A program made the position numbers and the translations under genes. This document shows, one piece after another, positions 3,571 to 23,451 of a DNA stretch of 64,000 bases; the first letter of the stretch is position 1; every line of letters begins with the position of its first letter. This stretch comes from Xiphophorus maculatus (lineage: Eukaryota; Chordata; Actinopteri; Cyprinodontiformes; Poeciliidae), in the NCBI RefSeq assembly GCF_002775205.1, contig NC_036454.1:1747382-1811381 (forward strand). The letters are read 5' to 3'. The notes below the pieces were generated by a model. The model searched no databases, was not told where the DNA came from, and was given only the letters and a program-made list of their open reading frames with translations.

Positions 3571-3655
<85 letters not shown>
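3571..3655. repeat. (TG)n microsatellite
   Basis: About 42 uninterrupted TG units that run directly into the left inverted repeat of the SET-gene block at 3657. A second TG run lies just outside the right inverted repeat at 14310. Confidence 0.97.
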
Positions 3656-3656
<1 letters not shown>

Positions 3657-3682
3657 GGTATATATGGTTTAGCCTGCCTTTT
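3657..3682 (+). repeat. Left terminal inverted repeat of SET-gene block
   Basis: Begins GGTATATATGG and continues into TAGCCTGCCTTTT. It pairs with 14277-14302 on the other strand, 24 of 26 positions identical. Confidence 0.75.
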
Positions 3683-4089
3683 GACCTGAATACGTACTTA
3701 CGTTACGCGGACCTAGGGGTAATACACGGACAGTGCCAATGTCCGCATAAATCATGGAGTGTATTTTAAATTTTGAGTATCTAAACAACACTTTTTCTCA
3801 TAAATCTAAAGTTTTATAGGAACTATGCCAGTGTTTGCATGATTTGGACCATGTATTTGTACTTTTCACTGAATAAACAGCGTGATATCTCACTTTCTTT
3901 AATTGTCCTTTTATACCTGTAACCTGAGTTTTGTGTATTCCAGTGTATAACACAGCGCCGCCTGATGTCAGTGTATGAATTGCAGTTTTACACACATTTT
4001 TATACACTACGCGCGCTTTTAGCCGGTCATCATCTGATTGGCTGGAAAAAAACTGTGGGCGTGTCTTATTACCAAACCATCCCAGACGC

Positions 4090-4167
4090 AAGGTTTTTAA
4101 AAATTAAATCCTCATTTGAAGCCGCAGCCCTCAATATGGACGTGTTGGTGGAATAACCGTGCACAGG
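4090..4167 (+). other. Probable 5' UTR exon of the SET-domain gene
   Basis: A clean donor, CACAG|gtaagc, ends at 4167 and is followed by A/T-rich intron to the acceptor at 5372 (catgtcag), six bases before the ATG at 5379. The start of transcription is not defined; the 5' limit given is a guess. Confidence 0.5.
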
Positions 4168-5378
4168 TAAGCATTAATGGTAAATTAAAATAATTTTTGC
4201 CTAGATGAAGTTATTTACAAGTAAATAACTGCAGATGCAAGAAAGGTTTTTGAGCAAAATGGAATATTTCAGATTTTAATTTAGGTGACATTAAAGCTAA
4301 GCAACTTATTTTAGATATTTGCATCAAGTAGCTTAAATATGTATGCTTTTATGACTGAAAAGACTTACCTGAAGCAGTATAGTTTTTATTCCGACTGTTT
4401 CAAAGTAAGAGACTAGCTGGGCTAGGAGAGCTAGCTTCCTAGCTAGAGCTAGCCTCCTAGCTAGAAACAGGTGTTTGACAAGTTGACAATATTTGGGGTA
4501 GGTGGTACCTGTGTGGTACCTACTACCTAGCTTTTGGTGATAAAAGTTGGGTGATGAACTGTAAGGTTTTCATCATTATATTTAACAATATTGGTGAACT
4601 GCTTGCTTTATGTTAGCTAATTGCACCGTAGTGATGCTTGTTAAGCTCGTTAAGCTTGATTTCAAGCAGGAGATTAATAAGAAGCAAACCCACAGGTTTC
4701 TGTGAAACTTGTTTATCTTTTGGAAAAGCACCAATGGTTGAAGGTTTTAATAATTGGCTGCAATAGGGCTGGTGCATCAATGGCTTTAAAGCTGTGTACT
4801 GTAATCACTTTCATGACTTAAATGCTGAAAGTGTAAATCAAGAGTCCTCAAATTTAGGCAAATATCGGTGTCCTTCAATTTTTAAATGTATATTTGTGCC
4901 TGAATCAATTAGCTGAATAACCTCCTCATATGCAGCCAAATTCTCCAGATTTCTGACCACATTATTTGACTTAGGTGTGTTGAAGCAGAGATGCAACTAA
5001 AAGTTGGAGGAGACTGTCCCTGGAGGACTGATTAAAACTGTTTAATTAAAGATAAATAGGACTTCTCTAATAAAATTCATTTGTGCAACAAATTACCCTT
5101 TTTCCTTAAAGTATGGCTCAAATGTTCTTGTAAGGCTGTACTATTGGCTGAACATCAATATATTGAACACTGAACTATTTGTAGATGGTAAAGCACTTTT
5201 TTAAATCAGTGATTAAATAAATTATAGTGTTGGTGTTTTATCTGAGCTGTGTGTCTTGCATGCATAACATGTTTCCATATTTATAATTACATTTTTAGCT
5301 TTAACATTTGTAGGAATTACAAAGACACTTGTAATTCCTTCTTTGACTGTTATAACTTTTCATACATGTCAGTAAAAC

Positions 5379-8300
5379 ATGCAGAGGCGAAGACGCATAA
5401 ATCCGAAGGAAGATGCCAAATATTATATGCATACCAAAACGGACAAAGTGGGGCTTGACGTCACATACATCAATGCCTTTAAAGGTATGGGGATTTTTTT
5501 GGAGTGGTTTAAATACAATCAAGCCTTTATACATTGTTTACTCTTTCTACTATTATTTTTGCTTTCTTCTTTAGGTCGTGGTATCTTTGCCACAACCTCT
5601 TTTCAGAAAGGAGACTTTCTGTGTGAATATCGAGGTGAACTGATCAGTAAAGAGGAATGTGAGAGGAGACAGAGAGTTTACCATGACAACCTTAAAGTAT
5701 TCTTGTTTGAATTCTATTTTAATGGAAAACTCTGGTGGTGAGTATGTTTGTATCAGAAGTCTAATTAGAACTAAATGGCATATATATAAATTAATATTTT
5801 AATATTTAAAATTAAATGTTATGTATTTGCAGTGTTGATGCAGCAAAAGAAGATTGCTCCCTTGGAAGGCTTATAAACGATGACAATATCAGCCCAAATG
5901 CCAAAATGAAGTATTTGACCGTCCAACAGAAGCCACATTTGTGTTTATTTGCAACTCGAGATATCAATCAGGGAGAAGAGATTACGTACAATTATGGGGA
6001 CTCAGACTGGCCATGGCGACTCAAGGTACTAAAAAAATAAAAATGTATGAATCTTAAGACAATGTTCATTTAAGAAATGCACTAATAATGATGATTTACA
6101 ACCTGAACCTCCTTTTTTTTACCATTCTTTTCACAACACTAGATGGCTGACTATACAAGACATTACTGGGCAAATTAACCAGTTGCCCACAAATGTATAA
6201 TAAATAATTACAGTATAGTAGTATTTACAGTAGTATTTTACGTATTCTCAAAACATTGTTACATCTACAATAAATTTGATATATATTCAAATTCAACAGA
6301 ACTCCAGTGGGATGTCTTCAACTGGACAAGATGTTGAGGTGCCATCCACATCACGGTTGGTTTCATACTATCAAGCAAAGACCAAATAAAGGTGTGGGAA
6401 AATGATATTATTGAAAGTTTTAAGACAAAATCTGAATATAAGTGAGGGTATCTCTGTGAATTAATGTAGGGCAGTATGGTGTTGACTGGTATTTATTTTC
6501 TGTTTCAGATCAGAGCTGAAAATGACCAGGATCAGATGATAACCAGTGTCCCAAACGAGACAGATCCAGTCCTGGATTCACTCCCCATCAAGGTTGGGAA
6601 TATTGGTTTGACCTCTGATAAATGTTGACTTGGCACCACAGAATATATTGGGAGAGTAAATATTTTAATTTCTTAAAGGTTATAGAAAATATTTTTATTT
6701 TTGGTGATTTTAATCTAACAGAATCAGACTTCAATTTGGTCAGTGCTGGTGAAATTATAATAGTCAACTTGTTTCTTAGCATTCGTCTTGCAGACTGTTT
6801 CCAGAATTCAAAACACTTGGGTTAACAACCAAATTATTTTCTCTGCTACATCAGAAAATCTTCTGTGGGGATAAATCAATCAATCTTTCATCTTTTTCAC
6901 AGGAATTGGAGGAAGAAATGTCCCAAAGTCCTGACTGCACTCATTCAACTTCTACGGCTGGCAACACAGAACAGGTACAGAAGTTGGGTTTTCATTTTGA
7001 ATTTACCAAACATTTTGGCTGGATTTAAAACTAGTTTCCTTTCATGGGTGTTTTCTCTCATAGAACAATCATTTAAGTGAAGATATCTCTGTGAAGTAAT
7101 CAAGGGCAGTATGGTGTTGACTTGTATTTATTTTCTGTTTCAGATCACAGCTGAAAATGATCAGAATCAGATGACAACCAGTGTCCCAGATAAGACAGAC
7201 CCTGTCCTGGATTCACTCCCCATCAATTCAGAGGTATTTTATGTTTAAGGTGCAGCTAAATGATGTCAGTCAGCCAACCTGTTCAACTTCAGTGTGTCTG
7301 TGTGTGGACCTGAATGCCATGTGGTTTATCTGGACATTGGTTTGTAAAGACAGTCTCATGTCATGGTTTTCAGTTTGTAAGTTCAGCGTGTGTATGTGTG
7401 TGTTTCATGGTCACCTGCCCCAATGTGATACAGGAGGACCATATTGTATATGGGGACCTTGCGTTCTTGAATTGATAAAAACATATGTTTTGGTTCTTGT
7501 GACCTCGTAAATATTGATTTGACCTCTGACAAATGTTGACTTGGCATTACAGAATATATTGGGAGAGTAAATATTTTAATTTCTTAAAGGTTAAAGTAGA
7601 TGCATAGATTTTTGCTAAAATTTCTTTTAATTTCACAACAGAATCAGACTTCAATCTTGTCAATGCTGGTGAAATTGGAGTATTTTGAATATTTGTTAAA
7701 GTTTGCTGTCATTCAATGTGTATAACGTTCATCTTTTAAGTTGTTTCCAGGATTTAAAACACTTGAGTTACAATCGGACTATTTTCTCTGCTGCATCACA
7801 ATTTCTGTGGAGAAAAAAATCAATTTTTCTTCTTTTTCACAGGAATTGGAGAAAGAAATGACTCAAAGTCCTGACTATCCTTGTACATCTCCTTCAGCTG
7901 GCAACACAGAACAGGTACAGAAGTTGGGTTTTCATTTTGAATTTACCAAACATTTTGGCTGGATTTAAAACTAGTTTCCTTTCATGGGTGTTTTCTCTCA
8001 TAGAACAATCATTTAAGTGAAGATATCTCTGTGAAGTAATCAAGGGCAGTATGGTGTTGACTTGTATTTATTTTCTGTTTCAGATCAGAGCTGAAAATGA
8101 TCAGGATCAGATGACAACCAGTGTCCCAAATGAGACAGACCCTGTCCTGGATTCACTCCCCATCAATTCAGAGGTATTTTATGTTTAAGGTGCAGCTAAA
8201 TGATGTCAGTCAGCCAACCTGTTCAACTTCAGTGTGTCTGTGTGTGAACCTGAATGCCATGTGGTTTATCTGGACATTGGTTTGTAAGGACAGTCTCATG

Positions 8301-10079
8301 TCATGGTTTTCAGTTTGTAAGTTCAGCGTGTGTATGTGTGTGTTTCATGGTCACCTGCCCCAATGTGATACAGGAGGACTATATTGTATATGGGGACCTT
8401 GCGTTCTTGAATTGATAAAAACATATGTTTTGGTTCTTGTGACCTTGTAAATATTGATTTGACCTCTGAAAAATGTTGACTTGGCATTACAGAATATATT
8501 GGGAGAGTAAATATTTTAATTTCTTAAAGGTTAAAGTAGATGCATAGATTTTTGCTAAAATTTCTTTTAATTTCACAACAGAATCAGACTTCAATCTTGT
8601 CAATGCTGGTGAAATTGGAGTATTTTGAATATTTGTTAAAGTTTGCTGTCATTCAATGTGTATAACGTTCATCTTTTAAGGTGTTTCCAGGATTTAAAAC
8701 ACTTGAGTTACAATCGGACTATTTTCTCTGCTGCATCACAGAATTTCTGTGGAGAAAAAAATCAATTTTTCTTCTTTTTCACAGGAATTGGAGGAAGAAA
8801 TGTCCCAAAGTCCTGACTGTCCTCATACGACTTCTACGGCTGGCAACACAGAACAGGTACAGAAGTTGGGTTTTCATTTTGAATTTACCAAACATTTTGG
8901 CTGGATTTAAAACTAGTTTCCTTTCATGGGTGTTTTCTCTCATAGAACAATCATTTAAGTGAAGATATCTCTGTGAAGTAATCAAGGGCAGTATGGTGTT
9001 GACTTGTATTTATTTTCTGTTTCAGATCACAGCTGAAAATGATCAGGATCAGATGACAACCAGTGTCCCAAATGAGACAGACCCTGTCCTGGATTCACTC
9101 CCCATCAATTCAGAGGTATTTTATGTTTAAGGTGCAGCTAAATGATGTCAGTCAGCCAACCTGTTCAACTTCAGTGTGTCTGTGTGTGGACCTGAATGCC
9201 ATGTGGTTTATCTGGACATTGGTTTGTAAGGACAGTCTCATGTCATGGTTTTCAGTTTGTAAGTTCAGCGTGTGTATGTGTGTGTTTCATGGTCACCTGC
9301 CCCAATGTGATACAGGAGGACTATATTGTATATGGGGACCTTGCGTTCTTGAATTGATAAAAACATATGTTTTGGTTCTTGTGACCTTGTAAATATTGAT
9401 TTGACCTCTGATAAATGTTGACTTGGCATTACAGAATATATTGGGAGAGTAAATATTTTAATTTCTTAAAGGTTAAAGTAGATGCATAGATTTTTGCTAA
9501 AATTCCTTTTAATTTCACAACAGAATCAGACTTCCATCTTGTCAATGCTGGTGAAATTGGAGTATTTTGAATATTTGTTAAAGTTTGCTGTCATTCAATG
9601 TGTATGACGTTCATCTTTTAAGGTGTTAACAGGATTTAAAACACTTGAGTTACAATCGGACTATTTTCTCTGCTGCATCACAATTTCTGTGGAGAAAAAA
9701 ATCAATTTTTCTTCTTTTTCACAGGAATTGGAGAAAGAAATGACTCAAAGTCCTGACTGTCCTCGTACGACTTCTACGGCTGGCAACACAGAACAGGTAC
9801 AGAAGTTGGATTTTCATTTTGAAATTACCAAACATTTTGGCTGGATTTAAAACTAGTTTCCTTCCATGGTTGTTGGCTCTCATACCACAATCATTTAAGT
9901 GAAGATATCTCTGTGAAGTAGTCAACCATTTCATATATGGGGACCTTGCTTTATTGAATAGATAAAAACATATGTTTTGGTTCTTGTGAGGTTGAGAATA
10001 TTGGTTTGACTTCTGATAAATGTTGACTTGGTGGCACAGAATATAATCTTAGAAAAATGTTTTAAATGTTGTCAAAGTT

Positions 10080-10151
<72 letters not shown>

Positions 10152-13102
10152 TATAAATTTTGTCTTTTGTATTTATCTACATCTTGACCACACAATATTT
10201 TTAATTCAACAATTTAAAAGTTTGCAGAAAATGTTGTTTTTTATGACTGGAACCCTCAGTAATTATTTGTCTCATTTATTATCCAATATAGTATGATCCC
10301 AGAGGGGAAATTGCTTACTCATTGAAAAGCTACTCCATCTGAGCTAATACATATAAATAATAAAATATGTCTGTCTGTCTGTGAAAACGTTTGGGCACCC
10401 TTATTAATCTTAATTATTTTATTTCTAAATATTTGGGGTTTTGCAACAGCTATTTCAGTTTGATATATCTAATAACTGATGGAAACATTAATATTCCAGT
10501 ATTAAATTGAGGTTTATTGTACTAACAGAAAATGTGCAATATGCATTAAAACAGAATTTGACAGGTGCAAAAATTTGGGTACCCTTATCATTTTATTGAT
10601 TTGAATACTCCCAACTACTTTTCACTGACTTACTGAAACACAAAATTGGTTTGGTAACCTCATTAAGCTTTGAACTTCATAGACAAGTGTATCCAATCAT
10701 GAGAATATGTATTTATGGTGGCCAGTTGCAAGTTGTTCTCCTGTTTGAGTCTCCTCTGAAGAGTGGCATCATGGGCACCTCAAAACAACTCTCAAATGAT
10801 CTGAATACAAAGATTGTTCAACATAGTTGTTTAGGGGAAGGATACAAAAAGTTGTCTCAGAGATTTAAACTGTCAGTTTCCACTGTGAGGAACATAGTAA
10901 GGAAATGGAAGACCACAGGGACAGTTCTTGTTAAGCCCAGAAGTGGCAGGCCAAGAAAAATATCAGAGAGGCAGAGAAGAAGAATGGCGAGAACAATCAA
11001 AGACAACCCACAGACCACCTCAAAGACCTGCAGGATCATCTTGCTGCAGATGGTGTCTCTGTGCATTGTTCAACAATTCAGCGCACTTTGCACAAGGAGA
11101 AGCTGTATGGGAGAGTGATGCGACAGAAGCCTTTTCTGCAAGCATGGCACAAACAGTCGCTTGAGGTATGCAAAAGCACATTTGGACAAGCCGGTTTCAT
11201 TTTGGAACAAGGTCCTGTGGACTGATGAAACAAAGATTGAGGGGTTCCGGTGACGTCAACTTCCGAGATGGCAGCTTGAGCTGACTGCACCTCCAGTAAA
11301 TCTTAATTTGACCGCCATTAATTGCCAAATATAACAAAAAATGAGTAAAATGGAATCTATAAGGGGGTCTAGAATGGGGAAAAGGGACGGGAATAAGAAA
11401 ACCACGAATAAAGAATTGGCAAAAGAAAGAAAGACGGCAGGTAGCTCACCAACACATCAGCACCTCGGCGAAGCTAATGCTAATAAGCTTTCCACTGACT
11501 CGACTGCACTAGCGCAAATCCTGGGGGAGTTACGGGATTTCCGAAAAGATATGAAACAACAGCTTGATGACATTAAGTCAGAACTCATCAACATACACCA
11601 AAAAATTAAGGAGACGGATGACCGAGTCAAAACGCAAACCATTATCATGTGTTCTGGGACTACCCAATCATAAAAGATTACTGGAAAAAGATAAATAGTG
11701 CCTTACAAGATATTTTCAAGCAGAACATTCCTTTTGAGATCAAGCTTATGTATTTTACATAATTTCTTCAAAAAGAAATAAATATTTAATGACTATTTTA
11801 TTAATAGCAAGTAAGAAAAACATTACAAGAAAATGGTTGTCACAAGACAAACCAACTTTCGACGACTGGATCGACATAATATTTAACATGTATAAAATGG
11901 AAAAGAAATAACAGTCACAGGACTGAACAATTCTGTCAGTGGTGGCAGATTTGGGTAGAGATCTGATTTCATTTTTAGAGACCAAACTTGATTAAATCTC
12001 CTATGACAGCCATACTTCATAATTATTCTATACTATGTCTTTCGTTTATGTATTTCTTTTTTTTTCTGGTTTGCTCTTTACATTTCTAACTCGATTCCTT
12101 TCTCTATTTTTGGTTTCTTCTTTCACACTCTTTATTCCTTGCTTTATAATCTTTCTCAGGGAAGTGAAGTTGCATTTTTGTTTTGACTGTTATTATGCAA
12201 TGGTCTGCATGTCTACCTTATTACAAATGTTGAAGTTAATCCTGTGATGTAGAGACCTAAGTTTATGTAAGTGGTGCTTTCTTGAGAATCAATAAAGATA
12301 AAATAAAAAAAAGAAACAAAGATTAAGTTGTTTGGTCATAAAAAATGGCGTTATGCATGGCAGCAAAAAAATACAACGTTTCAAGAAAAACACTTGCTAC
12401 CCACTGTAAAATGTGGTGGAGGTTTCATCATGCTTTGGGGCTGAGTGGCCAATGTCAGCAATGGGGATCTTGTTAAAGTTGAGGGTTGCATGGATTTCAC
12501 TCAATATCAACAGATTCTTGAGAATAATGTTCAAGAATCAGTTACGAAGTTGAAGTTGCGCTGGGATATTTCAGCAAGACAATGATCCAAAACACCGCTC
12601 CAAATCTACTCGGGCATTCATGCAGAGGAACAATTACAATGTTCTGGAATGGCCATCCCAATCCCCAGACCTGAATATCATTGAACATCTGTGGGATGAT
12701 TTGAAGCAGGCTGTAAATGCTCGGCGACCATCAAACTTAACTGAACTGGAATTGTTTTGCAAAGAAGAATGGTCAAAAATACCTTCATCCAGGATCCAGG
12801 AACTCATTAAAAGCTACAGGAAGTGACTAGAGGCTGTTATTTTTGCAAAAGGAGGATCTGCTAAATATTAATGCCACTTTTCTGTTGAAGTGCCCATATT
12901 TTGCACCTGTCAAATTCTGTTTTAATGCATACTTCACATTTTCTGTTAGTACAATAAACCTCAATGCAATACTGAAATATTACTTATGTCCATCAGATAT
13001 ATCAAACTGAAATAGCTGTTGCATACACCCAAATATTTAGATATAAAAATAATTAAGTTTAATAGGGCTGCCCAAACTTTTTCATATGACTGTATATATA
13101 TG

Positions 13103-13173
<71 letters not shown>

Positions 13174-13542
13174 TTTTAAATATATGTTTAATTTGTTCTT
13201 TGTAGTGAGGTTCCACCAGCAGCCATCTTGAATGTTTTTCATTTTTTGTTTTAATAAACTGTTTTAATCATTTTTCTCTTTACTTTTTTCCCTTCAGAGA
13301 CCTCCTCTACTGCACCCAGAAGACAACCAAAAAAACCATGGTCAAGTGCTGAGGTTTCTGCTGTTATGAGGCATTTTAAAGCTCACATAGGTAAAGGAAA
13401 ACTTGCCACTAAAAATGAGTGCAAACACTGCAAGTTGGTGGAAGGTCCTGTGCTGGCTCAAAGAACAGCACAAAATATCAGGGACTTTGTGAGAAACCGT
13501 GGAATAACTGCTATGAGGCAGGCACAAAAGAAAAGGCTCTAG
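5379..13542 (+). CDS. KMT5A-like SET-domain protein with repeated linker exons
   Basis: Thirteen exons splice in phase to 468 residues: 5379..5484, 5575..5737, 5833..6025, 6300..6359, 6509..6592, 6903..6974, 7144..7233, 7843..7914, 8084..8173, 8785..8856, 9026..9115, 9725..9796 and 13300..13542. Residues 1-154 are a SET domain of the KMT5A (SETD8, H4K20 methyltransferase) type: [40 protein letters not shown], then [10 protein letters not shown]. The usual NHS of the catalytic pocket reads NDD, so activity is uncertain. Residues about 155-388 are low-complexity linker from alternating 72-nt and 84/90-nt exons in tandem. The last 80 residues hold [18 protein letters not shown], a CxxC pair and [11 protein letters not shown] recall this tail at the end of multi-copy fish tyrosine-recombinase-like proteins, but cannot verify it here. 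The donor of the 60-nt exon (gtttca) is weak. AATAAA lies at 13959. Confidence 0.75.
6903..9900 (+). repeat. Tandem array of ~940-bp units, each with two in-frame exons
   Basis: Units start near 6903, 7843, 8785 and 9725 (spacing 940, 942, 940); the last copy is cut short near 9900. Each full unit holds a 72-nt exon ([12 protein letters not shown] type, ending AGNTEQ) and a 90-nt exon ([17 protein letters not shown]). Both are phase 0, so any copy number keeps the frame. Introns are nearly identical between units, showing recent duplication. An older diverged 84-nt copy lies at 6509. Confidence 0.93.
10083..10155. repeat. (TA)n microsatellite
   Basis: Near-perfect AT dinucleotide run with one TATGTATA interruption, about 220 bases left of the Tc1 element. 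Confidence 0.95.
10771..11118 (+). pseudogene. Tc1-type transposase, N-terminal fragment
   Basis: The ATG at 10771 starts [17 protein letters not shown], a normal Tc1-transposase beginning. The paired helix-turn-helix region and the GRPR hinge (SGRPRKIS) are present. The frame is lost around residue 90-115 and the C-terminal third lies beyond the L1 insertion at 12325-12826. It would have bound the Tc1 ends; it cannot now make a full enzyme. Confidence 0.88.
11239..12312 (+). mobile_element. Internally deleted L1-like LINE
   Basis: Flanked by a perfect 12-bp target duplication, GAAACAAAGATT, at 11227-11238 and 12313-12324. The 5' UTR leads to an ORF1-like start at 11341 ([15 protein letters not shown]) with a coiled-coil region ([20 protein letters not shown]). 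Around 11650 the sequence jumps to the end of an ORF2-like region ([20 protein letters not shown] in another frame). It ends in a 3' UTR and an A-rich tail (aataaagataaaataaaaaaaa). Only about 1.07 kb remains of an element that is normally several kb, so the endonuclease and reverse transcriptase are gone. Confidence 0.85.
13097..13163. repeat. (TA)n microsatellite beside the Tc1 right end
   Basis: TA run directly outside the Tc1 element; the TA target of Tc1 probably lay in or seeded this tract. Confidence 0.93.
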
Positions 13543-13958
13543 ATTTTATGTGAAGTAATCATTTGTTCAAAAGTGTTCCATTTTGTTCATGCTACTAAAA
13601 CATTTTTTTTTGTTGCCTATCAAACAATATTATCTGTAAAGTCCCGTGACTTAGAGGCTGTTTAAATGTATTTGTGTTGATAGGCAGAAAAGCGTTTTTC
13701 TAATGGTGAGGCATTTTTCTGTTGTCCAGCATAAAAATTATTCGAAAAGGTGGCAGAATTTTAATTTAACATTCTTTTACTTATTTATTTATATTCAGAA
13801 TATTTGGCAACAGTCTGCACCCTAAAACCCTTATTTTACTTTTGTGTATGTTTTGTTGAGGCACTTAAATTAGATTGTTTTTCTTTTGGTAATTTCAATT
13901 TGAGGCTTACTTTTATTTTTTAAAGAAAAATAATTGAATTATTTGGTCATATTTACCT

Positions 13959-13964
13959 AATAAA
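13959..13964 (+). terminator. Polyadenylation signal of the SET-domain gene
   Basis: AATAAA 417 bases after the stop codon at 13542 and 313 bases before the right inverted repeat, so the transcript would end inside the block. Confidence 0.6.
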
Positions 13965-14276
13965 ATATGTTCTGTTAATGCTTTGTGCTGTCACGTTGTG
14001 TATTTATGCTAATCAGCAGGTTTTTAAATATGACGTAGTTGTCCCTTTAAAGTTCTCACAATACTTTGTTTTGTTCTCATAAACCACATTTGCTGATGTC
14101 CATACAAGCCACCATGTTGTCAGGCTGCTGAAAGAAAGGCTGTGTAGCTGCTATCTGAAACCTAAAGGGAGCTAAATTTTTTTCAGATTTTTTGCAGTGT
14201 TTTAAGCCACCTCCCATTGCTCTAGCTACTTGGGAAAGGGTAGTCCAGCTAAACCACCGTCGGGCCTGTTTGGCGA

Positions 14277-14302
14277 AAAAGGCAGGCTATACCTTATATA
14301 CC
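14277..14302 (-). repeat. Right terminal inverted repeat of SET-gene block
   Basis: Reverse complement begins GGTATATAAGG and continues to TAGCCTGCCTTTT, pairing with 3657-3682. A TG run starts 8 bases outside it. Confidence 0.75.
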
Positions 14303-15266
14303 TGTATAGGTGTGTGTGTGTGTGTGTGTGTGTTCAGTAGCACCAGATTAAATGATCTGGATCCTCTGATTAATGATGAATCAGCATCAGATCTGCAGCC
14401 TGCAGCGGTTCCTGCGACCGAGCCGCACCAAAGCAGCCGCCGCCTTGATGGAGCCGCTGACGGCTGGGAGCAGGAAGCCTCTGAAGCTGCTGACACACCC
14501 ACACCCCCCCACACCCCCCCCCCACACACACACACACACACACAGGGACAGTTGACCTGTCCAATCACAACATGCCGACCTTTCAACCTGAATGAAAGCA
14601 TCACTAAAATGTTTTTATCATTAAAAAATATATATATTTTGGTTTTAAAAACCAAAATCTAAATAATTTTTGTCCTCAGTAGAAACGTTTTGTGGTTCCT
14701 GAAACTGGATTCTGTATGTCATAATGTTCATCAGGTCACCCCGAGTTCGGTGAGTGCTTTAAGACAAACCGGACCGGACTGAACCGGACCGGACCGAACT
14801 GGTACAGCTGCAGCAGATTGCAGCCTGATTGCAACTCTGTCGTGAATCGGTCCTTTCCTGTTTTTACTATTTCTAGTATAAATGAAAATGTTCATTCTAA
14901 TTTTGTTTTTAAATTTTTACTTCTCTGTGAATCTGTGATCTGCTCCTCTAGCTTCACCCTGCTGCTGTGCCTGATGTCCCTCTGCTGGACAGAGAGGACA
15001 TTTCTGTGGTGAAGACTGAACCCCGGCGAGACGCGTTCGTCTCAGAGACGACAGGAGACACGAGGCGTGTTGAAGCGTCCTGTTATTTTTGCACAAACAC
15101 AGAACAACATGAGGAACCAGCAGCGACTGCAGCTGAAGCCACTGAGGCGTCTTTAAAGTATTCACACCCTGCAGGTTGTCCTCCAGCTGGAACCGAGCCG
15201 GCCTGTCTCTGGACAGGAAGTGGGAAGACGTGTCTTTGGGAGACGCCACGGCGGGACGCGAGCGTC
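14303..15266. other. Stretch between SET-gene block and slc18a1 stop
   Basis: Contains TG and CA runs (14310-14333, 14523-14543) and a C-rich CACACCCCCC tract. It probably includes the 3' UTR of slc18a1 (minus strand), though I see no canonical AATAAA. Open frames here resemble nothing I recognise. Confidence 0.5.

Positions 15267-23451
<8,185 letters not shown>

Follow-up and report, generated by a model that had tools for sequence, protein, structure and literature searches.

How does a KMT5A-like SET gene come to lie between two inverted repeats, each of them close to a TG microsatellite, in the genome of a fish? The question is raised by positions 3657-14302 of a 64-kb stretch of Xiphophorus maculatus DNA (C12:1747382-1811381, hereafter the window), where a first-pass annotation had proposed a DNA element with a chromatin-modifier-like gene as its cargo. 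I searched the genome (704 Mb) for the ends and the genes of this block; these searches score the best candidates only, and all counts of copies and loci given below are lower bounds. Most probably, we have here a DNA transposon, in a non-autonomous copy, that is moved by a tyrosine recombinase (YR), integrates into TG microsatellites and has the KMT5A-like gene on board.

Copies of the element

The terminal inverted repeat (TIR) has two 26-bp arms, 3657-3682 on the left and 14277-14302 on the right, with 24 of the 26 positions complementary, and within the window the reverse complement of the left arm is found at one place only, the right arm, when at least 18 of 26 matching positions are asked for. 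Outside both arms lies (TG)n in the same orientation (3571-3655 on the left, 14311-14333 on the right), the right array being separated from its arm by the eight bases TGTATAGG. The inverted repeat and the TG-repeat DNA at both ends, as first annotated, are thereby borne out, and the two ends do occur together elsewhere in this genome: both ends are seen in C12 (the window copy), C4 and C20, with unrelated outer flanks. In the genome search the left end matches at 100% in these three places and at 84% in C23, while the right end matches at 100% in the same three and in C22, at 83% in C1 and at 82% in C5. From arm to arm the copies measure 10.65 kb (C12), 10.68 kb (C4) and 15.23 kb (C20); the left part of the C22 copy falls in a run of 5,000 N.

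These four copies, family F1, all have unrelated flanks and form two subtypes, with 7 differences in 10,630 aligned bases between C12 and C4, and 7 in 11,898 between C20 and C22. The subtypes are 0.64-0.76% divergent from each other, and the range over all four copies is 0.06-0.76%. An old nested Tc1 element is common to all four, so the element was still mobile after the Tc1 insertion. At window position 13208, C20 and C22 hold an extra 3.7 kb that is missing from C12 and C4; as these two share the same deletion at different genomic places, the deleted form must have moved after the deletion. The block is confirmed as a transposon that has recently moved, and the window copy is a deletion derivative, which moved after loss of the recombinase gene. 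The sole enzyme-bearing copy read from arm to arm, that on C20, shows the order (TG)n, arm, SET gene, zinc-finger-like exons with the putative YR, tail exon, arm, (TG)n.

The putative recombinase and the SET gene

The extra segment contains, in C20 as well as in C22, an open reading frame of 703 amino acids, preceded by two short in-frame exons whose translation is zinc-finger-like, with a RING-like match that is weak and under the Pfam cut-off (E 2e-4). The protein has two C2H2-like fingers and, towards its C-terminus, the motifs RRxGEV, GKRGRK, LRKH and LGH-x8-Y, which I take to follow the order and spacing of tyrosine recombinases, with R507, K554, R627, H629, H653 and Y662 as the six putative catalytic residues. 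Among 41 matches to this protein in the genome, 17 belong to four multi-copy families with 42-63% identical YRs (two copies in F1, three in F2, nine in F3 and three in F4) and four are single copies that could be aligned. The remaining 20, in which the match is shorter or broken, were left unclassified, except that one C2 group is named below for the SET exon beside it. All six residues are kept in each of the four families, of which one representative each was compared, whereas every one of the single copies has lost three or four of them (C12:6109108, C13:13565336, C13:13560025 and C7:6511961). The latter keep long open frames and look like host-adopted (domesticated) genes. A loose residue pattern, based on what is generally known of integrases, is matched by 3 of the 7 phage integrases, by all 4 intact families, by none of the 4 single copies and by 37 of 20,000 shuffles; the natural control of families versus single copies is better than such pattern or profile tests. 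On the grounds of its motifs and of the residue loss in the single copies, I regard the 703-residue protein as a putative YR.

Compared with the PDB, the joined exons A, B and C of the SET gene find KMT5A as their best relative (E 5e-25 over 123 residues), and the top 14 distinct PDB sequences for the SET domain are all KMT5A/SETD8. The YxYG motif is kept and the NHS motif has become NDD. The 26 rows of SET exon matches represent at least 23 loci, as each of the three F4 loci gives two rows. Eighteen of these lie in F1, F2, F4 and F8 (a family described below), three beside single-copy or broken YR relatives, and two (C8:24279139 and C12:17093260) beside neither; the last two are probable host KMT5A genes. 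The SET exon lies upstream of the YR in the F1 copy on C20, in all three copies each of F2 and F4, at both C13 loci, which stand in tandem, and in one remnant on C2. In the F1 copy on C22 the position of the SET gene falls in an N gap, and no SET match was found near the YR relatives C12:6109108 and C7:6511961.

The tail exon is found beside copies of all four YR families, and in the longer copies it lies downstream of the recombinase frame. Among its 34 matches, those at C14:23374217, C4:34126428, C5:30815714 and C17:953198 and three C12:611xxxx rows are unclassified. Family F8 consists of nine nearly identical copies with about 3.4-3.8 kb from SET to tail (for example C14:25516900-25524500); no YR match was found at any of the nine, which makes F8 a second YR-less form that keeps the SET gene, beside the type seen in the window. 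All nine F8 copies have SET exon C without a stop; in one of the nine the tail contains a stop. As a separate observation, the two ends of contig C100 (99,800 bp) join, one base short, inside an F8 element, giving a circle of about 99.8 kb; C100 may be an extrachromosomal circle or a tandem unit, or two F8 copies in direct orientation may have caused a loop in the assembly.

The first-pass annotation had called the SET gene the only gene of the block's own. Pfam supports its SET domain and the PDB its likeness to KMT5A, and the gene does travel on a DNA element; it is not alone there, since the block also holds a tandem repeat and a nested Tc1-like element, and the tail belongs with the deleted recombinase frame. 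As longer copies encode the putative YR, the SET gene belongs to a mobile unit and is not the lone cargo of an unknown transposase. The idea that the element explains why KMT5A-like loci are multi-copy would apply to the 18 of 23 loci within the families and not to the two that lie in neither a family nor beside a YR relative.

The probable TG-repeat target and the rival explanations

All 26 right ends that were followed run into TG in element orientation, and never into CA (4 of 4 in F1, 3 of 3 in F2, 10 of 10 in F3 and 9 of 9 in F8; nine of the F3 copies have a YR, and the tenth is known from its tail alone), while TG/CA arrays of at least 12 bp account for 0.75% of the window, with the two at the element counted in. 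The terminal motif itself was read in 13 of these ends (four in F1, three in F2, two in F3 and four in F8) and is alike in these families: CCTGTATAGG in F1 (TGTATAGG in the window), CCTGTATG in F2, CAAGTATG in F3 and CCAGTATG in F8. For the other 13 it is the array at the predicted place that was seen, which in the F3 copy on C4 amounts to 11 bases. The F1 arrays are 79-83 bp long at the three left ends and 23-39 bp at the four right ends; the left ones are nearly equal (83, 83 and 79 bp in the window, C20 and C4) and the right ones vary, and the left array behaves as if it were carried by the element. TG is present on both sides and in one orientation in all three two-ended copies, where the length of the repeats makes an exact duplication unreadable.

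I infer from this anatomy a scheme in which the recombinase would excise the element as a circle. In the circle the arms would face each other across TGTATAGG(TG)nTT, like the half-sites of a YR core, with TATATACCTGTATAGG(TG)nTTGGTATATA as the junction, and a crossover between the TG core of the circle and a genomic (TG)m would integrate the element. The integrated element would then be flanked by TG at each end and by no further duplication, which is what is observed. The YR-less copies in the window and on C4 would have moved in trans, with a full copy as the simplest source of the enzyme. Because YR-less copies keep SET and tail, I propose that the SET protein helps the element in chromatin, be it by anti-silencing or by opening the site or the target.

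Several results count against a YR-moved transposon of this kind or lend it no support. The 703-residue protein has no recombinase match in Pfam, PHROG or PDB sequence searches, and its alignment with seven phage integrases by hhalign is not significant: the score of 17.95 was beaten by 5 of 50 column shuffles (maximum 25.4), and the reversed (17.0) and N-terminal (15.6) controls come near it, even though the K, R, LGH and Y columns are among those aligned. When the residue pattern is made stricter, it is matched by 3 of the 4 families and by none of 20,000 shuffles, but also by none of the seven phage integrases. Searches of IMG/VR with one protein and with the alignment confirmed no relative, and one F3 copy, on C8, has a stop in its YR frame. 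No SET match was found near the nine F3 YR copies, read about 1.5 kb upstream of the YR. TIRs are demonstrated for F1 only; in all three F2 copies and all nine F8 copies the sequence read towards the left is still inside the element and does not reach its end. No TG array occurs in the sequence read beyond the open reading frame of the three F4 copies, whose ends were not located, nor at the old left-end remnant on C23.

Alternatively, the block may be a conventional DDE cut-and-paste transposon with TIRs and TG-containing target duplications, in which the 703-residue protein and the SET protein would be passengers. TIRs of such length are typical of DDE elements, and this speaks for the idea. 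In its favour is also the report that Ginger2-type DDE integrases with 46-bp TIRs place crab nimavirus genomes in (AT)n arrays (according to the accessible part of PMC10871703). However, among the 10 open reading frame stretches of the window copy that were scanned, the only transposase matches are those in the nested Tc1-like element; this has 84-bp arms of its own, and Tc1 was rejected as the mover. Moreover, the YR relatives recur, together with the tail, in four multi-copy families of one genome, and I consider a DDE element improbable. Yet less probable is a DIRS/Ngaro-type retroelement or an endogenous virus, the other genes having been lost. Both can carry YRs, and in the available text of PMC10871703 nimavirus YRs, typically with a C2H2 zinc-binding domain, accompany insertion into (TAACC)n. 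The scanned stretches and the YR frame gave no reverse transcriptase, RNase H or virion-type match, introns are inferred in the SET and YR genes, and the four F1 copies share the old nested Tc1 element; a retroelement was rejected for its want of a reverse transcriptase match in these frames, for the introns and for the shared Tc1.

A segmental duplication of a host KMT5A-like gene, without any transposition, would agree with the multi-copy state of such genes in this genome. It is contradicted by the shared exact ends and was rejected: the similarity stops at the arms and TG arrays, the flanks are unrelated, and the same type of end recurs in families whose YRs are 42-63% identical. I give this explanation hardly any credence.

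The YR-moved transposon may represent more than one odd element, namely a new superfamily of vertebrate YR transposons, in which the inverted ends would serve as half-sites in a circle, TG repeats as the niche and the captured SET protein, with the tail, in mobility or anti-silencing, for which it would be retained even after loss of the recombinase, and to which the 'KMT5A-like' families of fish would largely belong as transposon genes. This wider proposal is speculative, and I would rather expect parts of it to fail than the whole to hold. If true, vertebrates would have a lineage of recombinase-type transposons aimed precisely at TG repeats, where insertion may do little harm, and in a living genome an element with a chromatin-writing enzyme aboard would have moved recently. 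A role of histone methylation in the movement of the very elements that encode the enzyme would become testable, and multi-copy 'KMT5A-like' annotations would find an explanation. For biochemistry, too, a recombinase with TG repeats as its recognition sequence would be an interesting system.

Window features and comparison with known systems

Table 1. Parts of the element in the window (positions count from the first base of the 64-kb stretch).
Feature	Position	Strand	Remarks
(TG)n array, left end	3571-3656		final T/TT adjoins arm; such an array outside all three F1 left arms located
Left terminal inverted repeat arm	3657-3682	+	24/26 against right arm; identical in C20 and C4
SET gene exon A	5379-5484	+	begins MQRRRR; GT-AG borders by eye; tblastn with joined reading
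SET gene exon B, N-terminal half of SET domain	5575-5737	+	Pfam SET E 4.2e-7; borders by eye
SET gene exon C, C-terminal half of SET domain (...ITYNYGD)	5833-6025	+	Pfam SET E 9.7e-11; borders by eye
Tandem repeat, unit about 940 bp	6436-9987	+	inside element; one unit more in C20
Nested Tc1-like transposon	10489-12982	+	84-bp arms, 94% complementary; in 4 of 4 F1 copies
Site of missing 3.7 kb with recombinase exons	13208		segment present in C20 and C22
C-terminal tail exon	13294-13539	+	common to recombinase families
Right terminal inverted repeat arm	14277-14302	-	100% in C4, C20 and C22
Right terminal motif TGTATAGG	14303-14310	+	between arm and TG array; related motifs in F2, F3 and F8
(TG)n array, right end	14311-14333		outside right terminal motif

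The copy number of the 940-bp repeat varies among copies of the element, and its unit appears to contain an exon. The nested Tc1-like element is interrupted by a piece that presumably derives from a long interspersed element (LINE), resembling L1 ORF1, for which no Pfam match above the cut-off was found. The element sits just beyond the 3' end of a gene on the minus strand (15267-18133), whose exons I take to encode an SLC18-type vesicular transporter.

Among known proteins, KMT5A/SETD8 (PR-Set7) is the best solved relative of the element's SET domain, from which it differs in having NHS where the element has NDD. KMT5A is not known to have a recombinase or the tail. The YRs of endogenous nimaviruses, which target telomeric repeats (Kawato 2023, accessible part of PMC10871703), offer a likeness by description, as a YR with a zinc-binding domain is linked to insertion in one simple repeat; these are, in contrast, large viral genomes of crustaceans, with (TAACC)n as their target and no clear inverted repeats. 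Cryptons resemble the element in being DNA elements with a YR (here putative), in that no reverse transcriptase was found, and in the occurrence of non-autonomous derivatives. They are described as lacking TIRs, and those of animals as lacking terminal repeats of any kind (Kojima and Jurka 2011, available portions of PMC3212892), whereas the F1 element has a TIR with 24 of 26 positions matching. The same portions state that CryptonA proteins match DUF3504, and make no mention of SET, tail or TG targeting. The protein of the element does not match DUF3504: with eight proteins searched against Pfam, this domain was not listed at E up to 10, although HMMER filters out most matches beyond about 0.1. 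The YRs of Cryptons are marked by the residues R-(K)-H-R-Y; in the present protein this residue pattern is kept in the representatives of the four multi-copy families, and profile searches gave no significant match. Cryptons are further marked by short direct repeats at both ends and no target duplication beyond these, a trait that the length of the TG repeats makes unreadable in the F1 copies. A review on the mobile elements of fish deals with Cryptons in general terms in its accessible part (PMC7599744). I found no account of a YR element with a SET gene in fish in the open-licence literature, Repbase and subscription papers lying outside this scope.

The HarbingerS and MuDR elements of oomycetes use DDE transposases. 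They share with the present element that a DNA transposon carries a SET histone-methyltransferase gene (Kojima and Jurka 2014, as cited in PMC12730594), and differ from it in that they are known from oomycetes, with neither a YR nor a TG target reported in the accessible text (PMC12730594), which also describes TET/JBP genes in fungal transposons. These oomycete and fungal cases are precedents for chromatin modifiers on DNA transposons.

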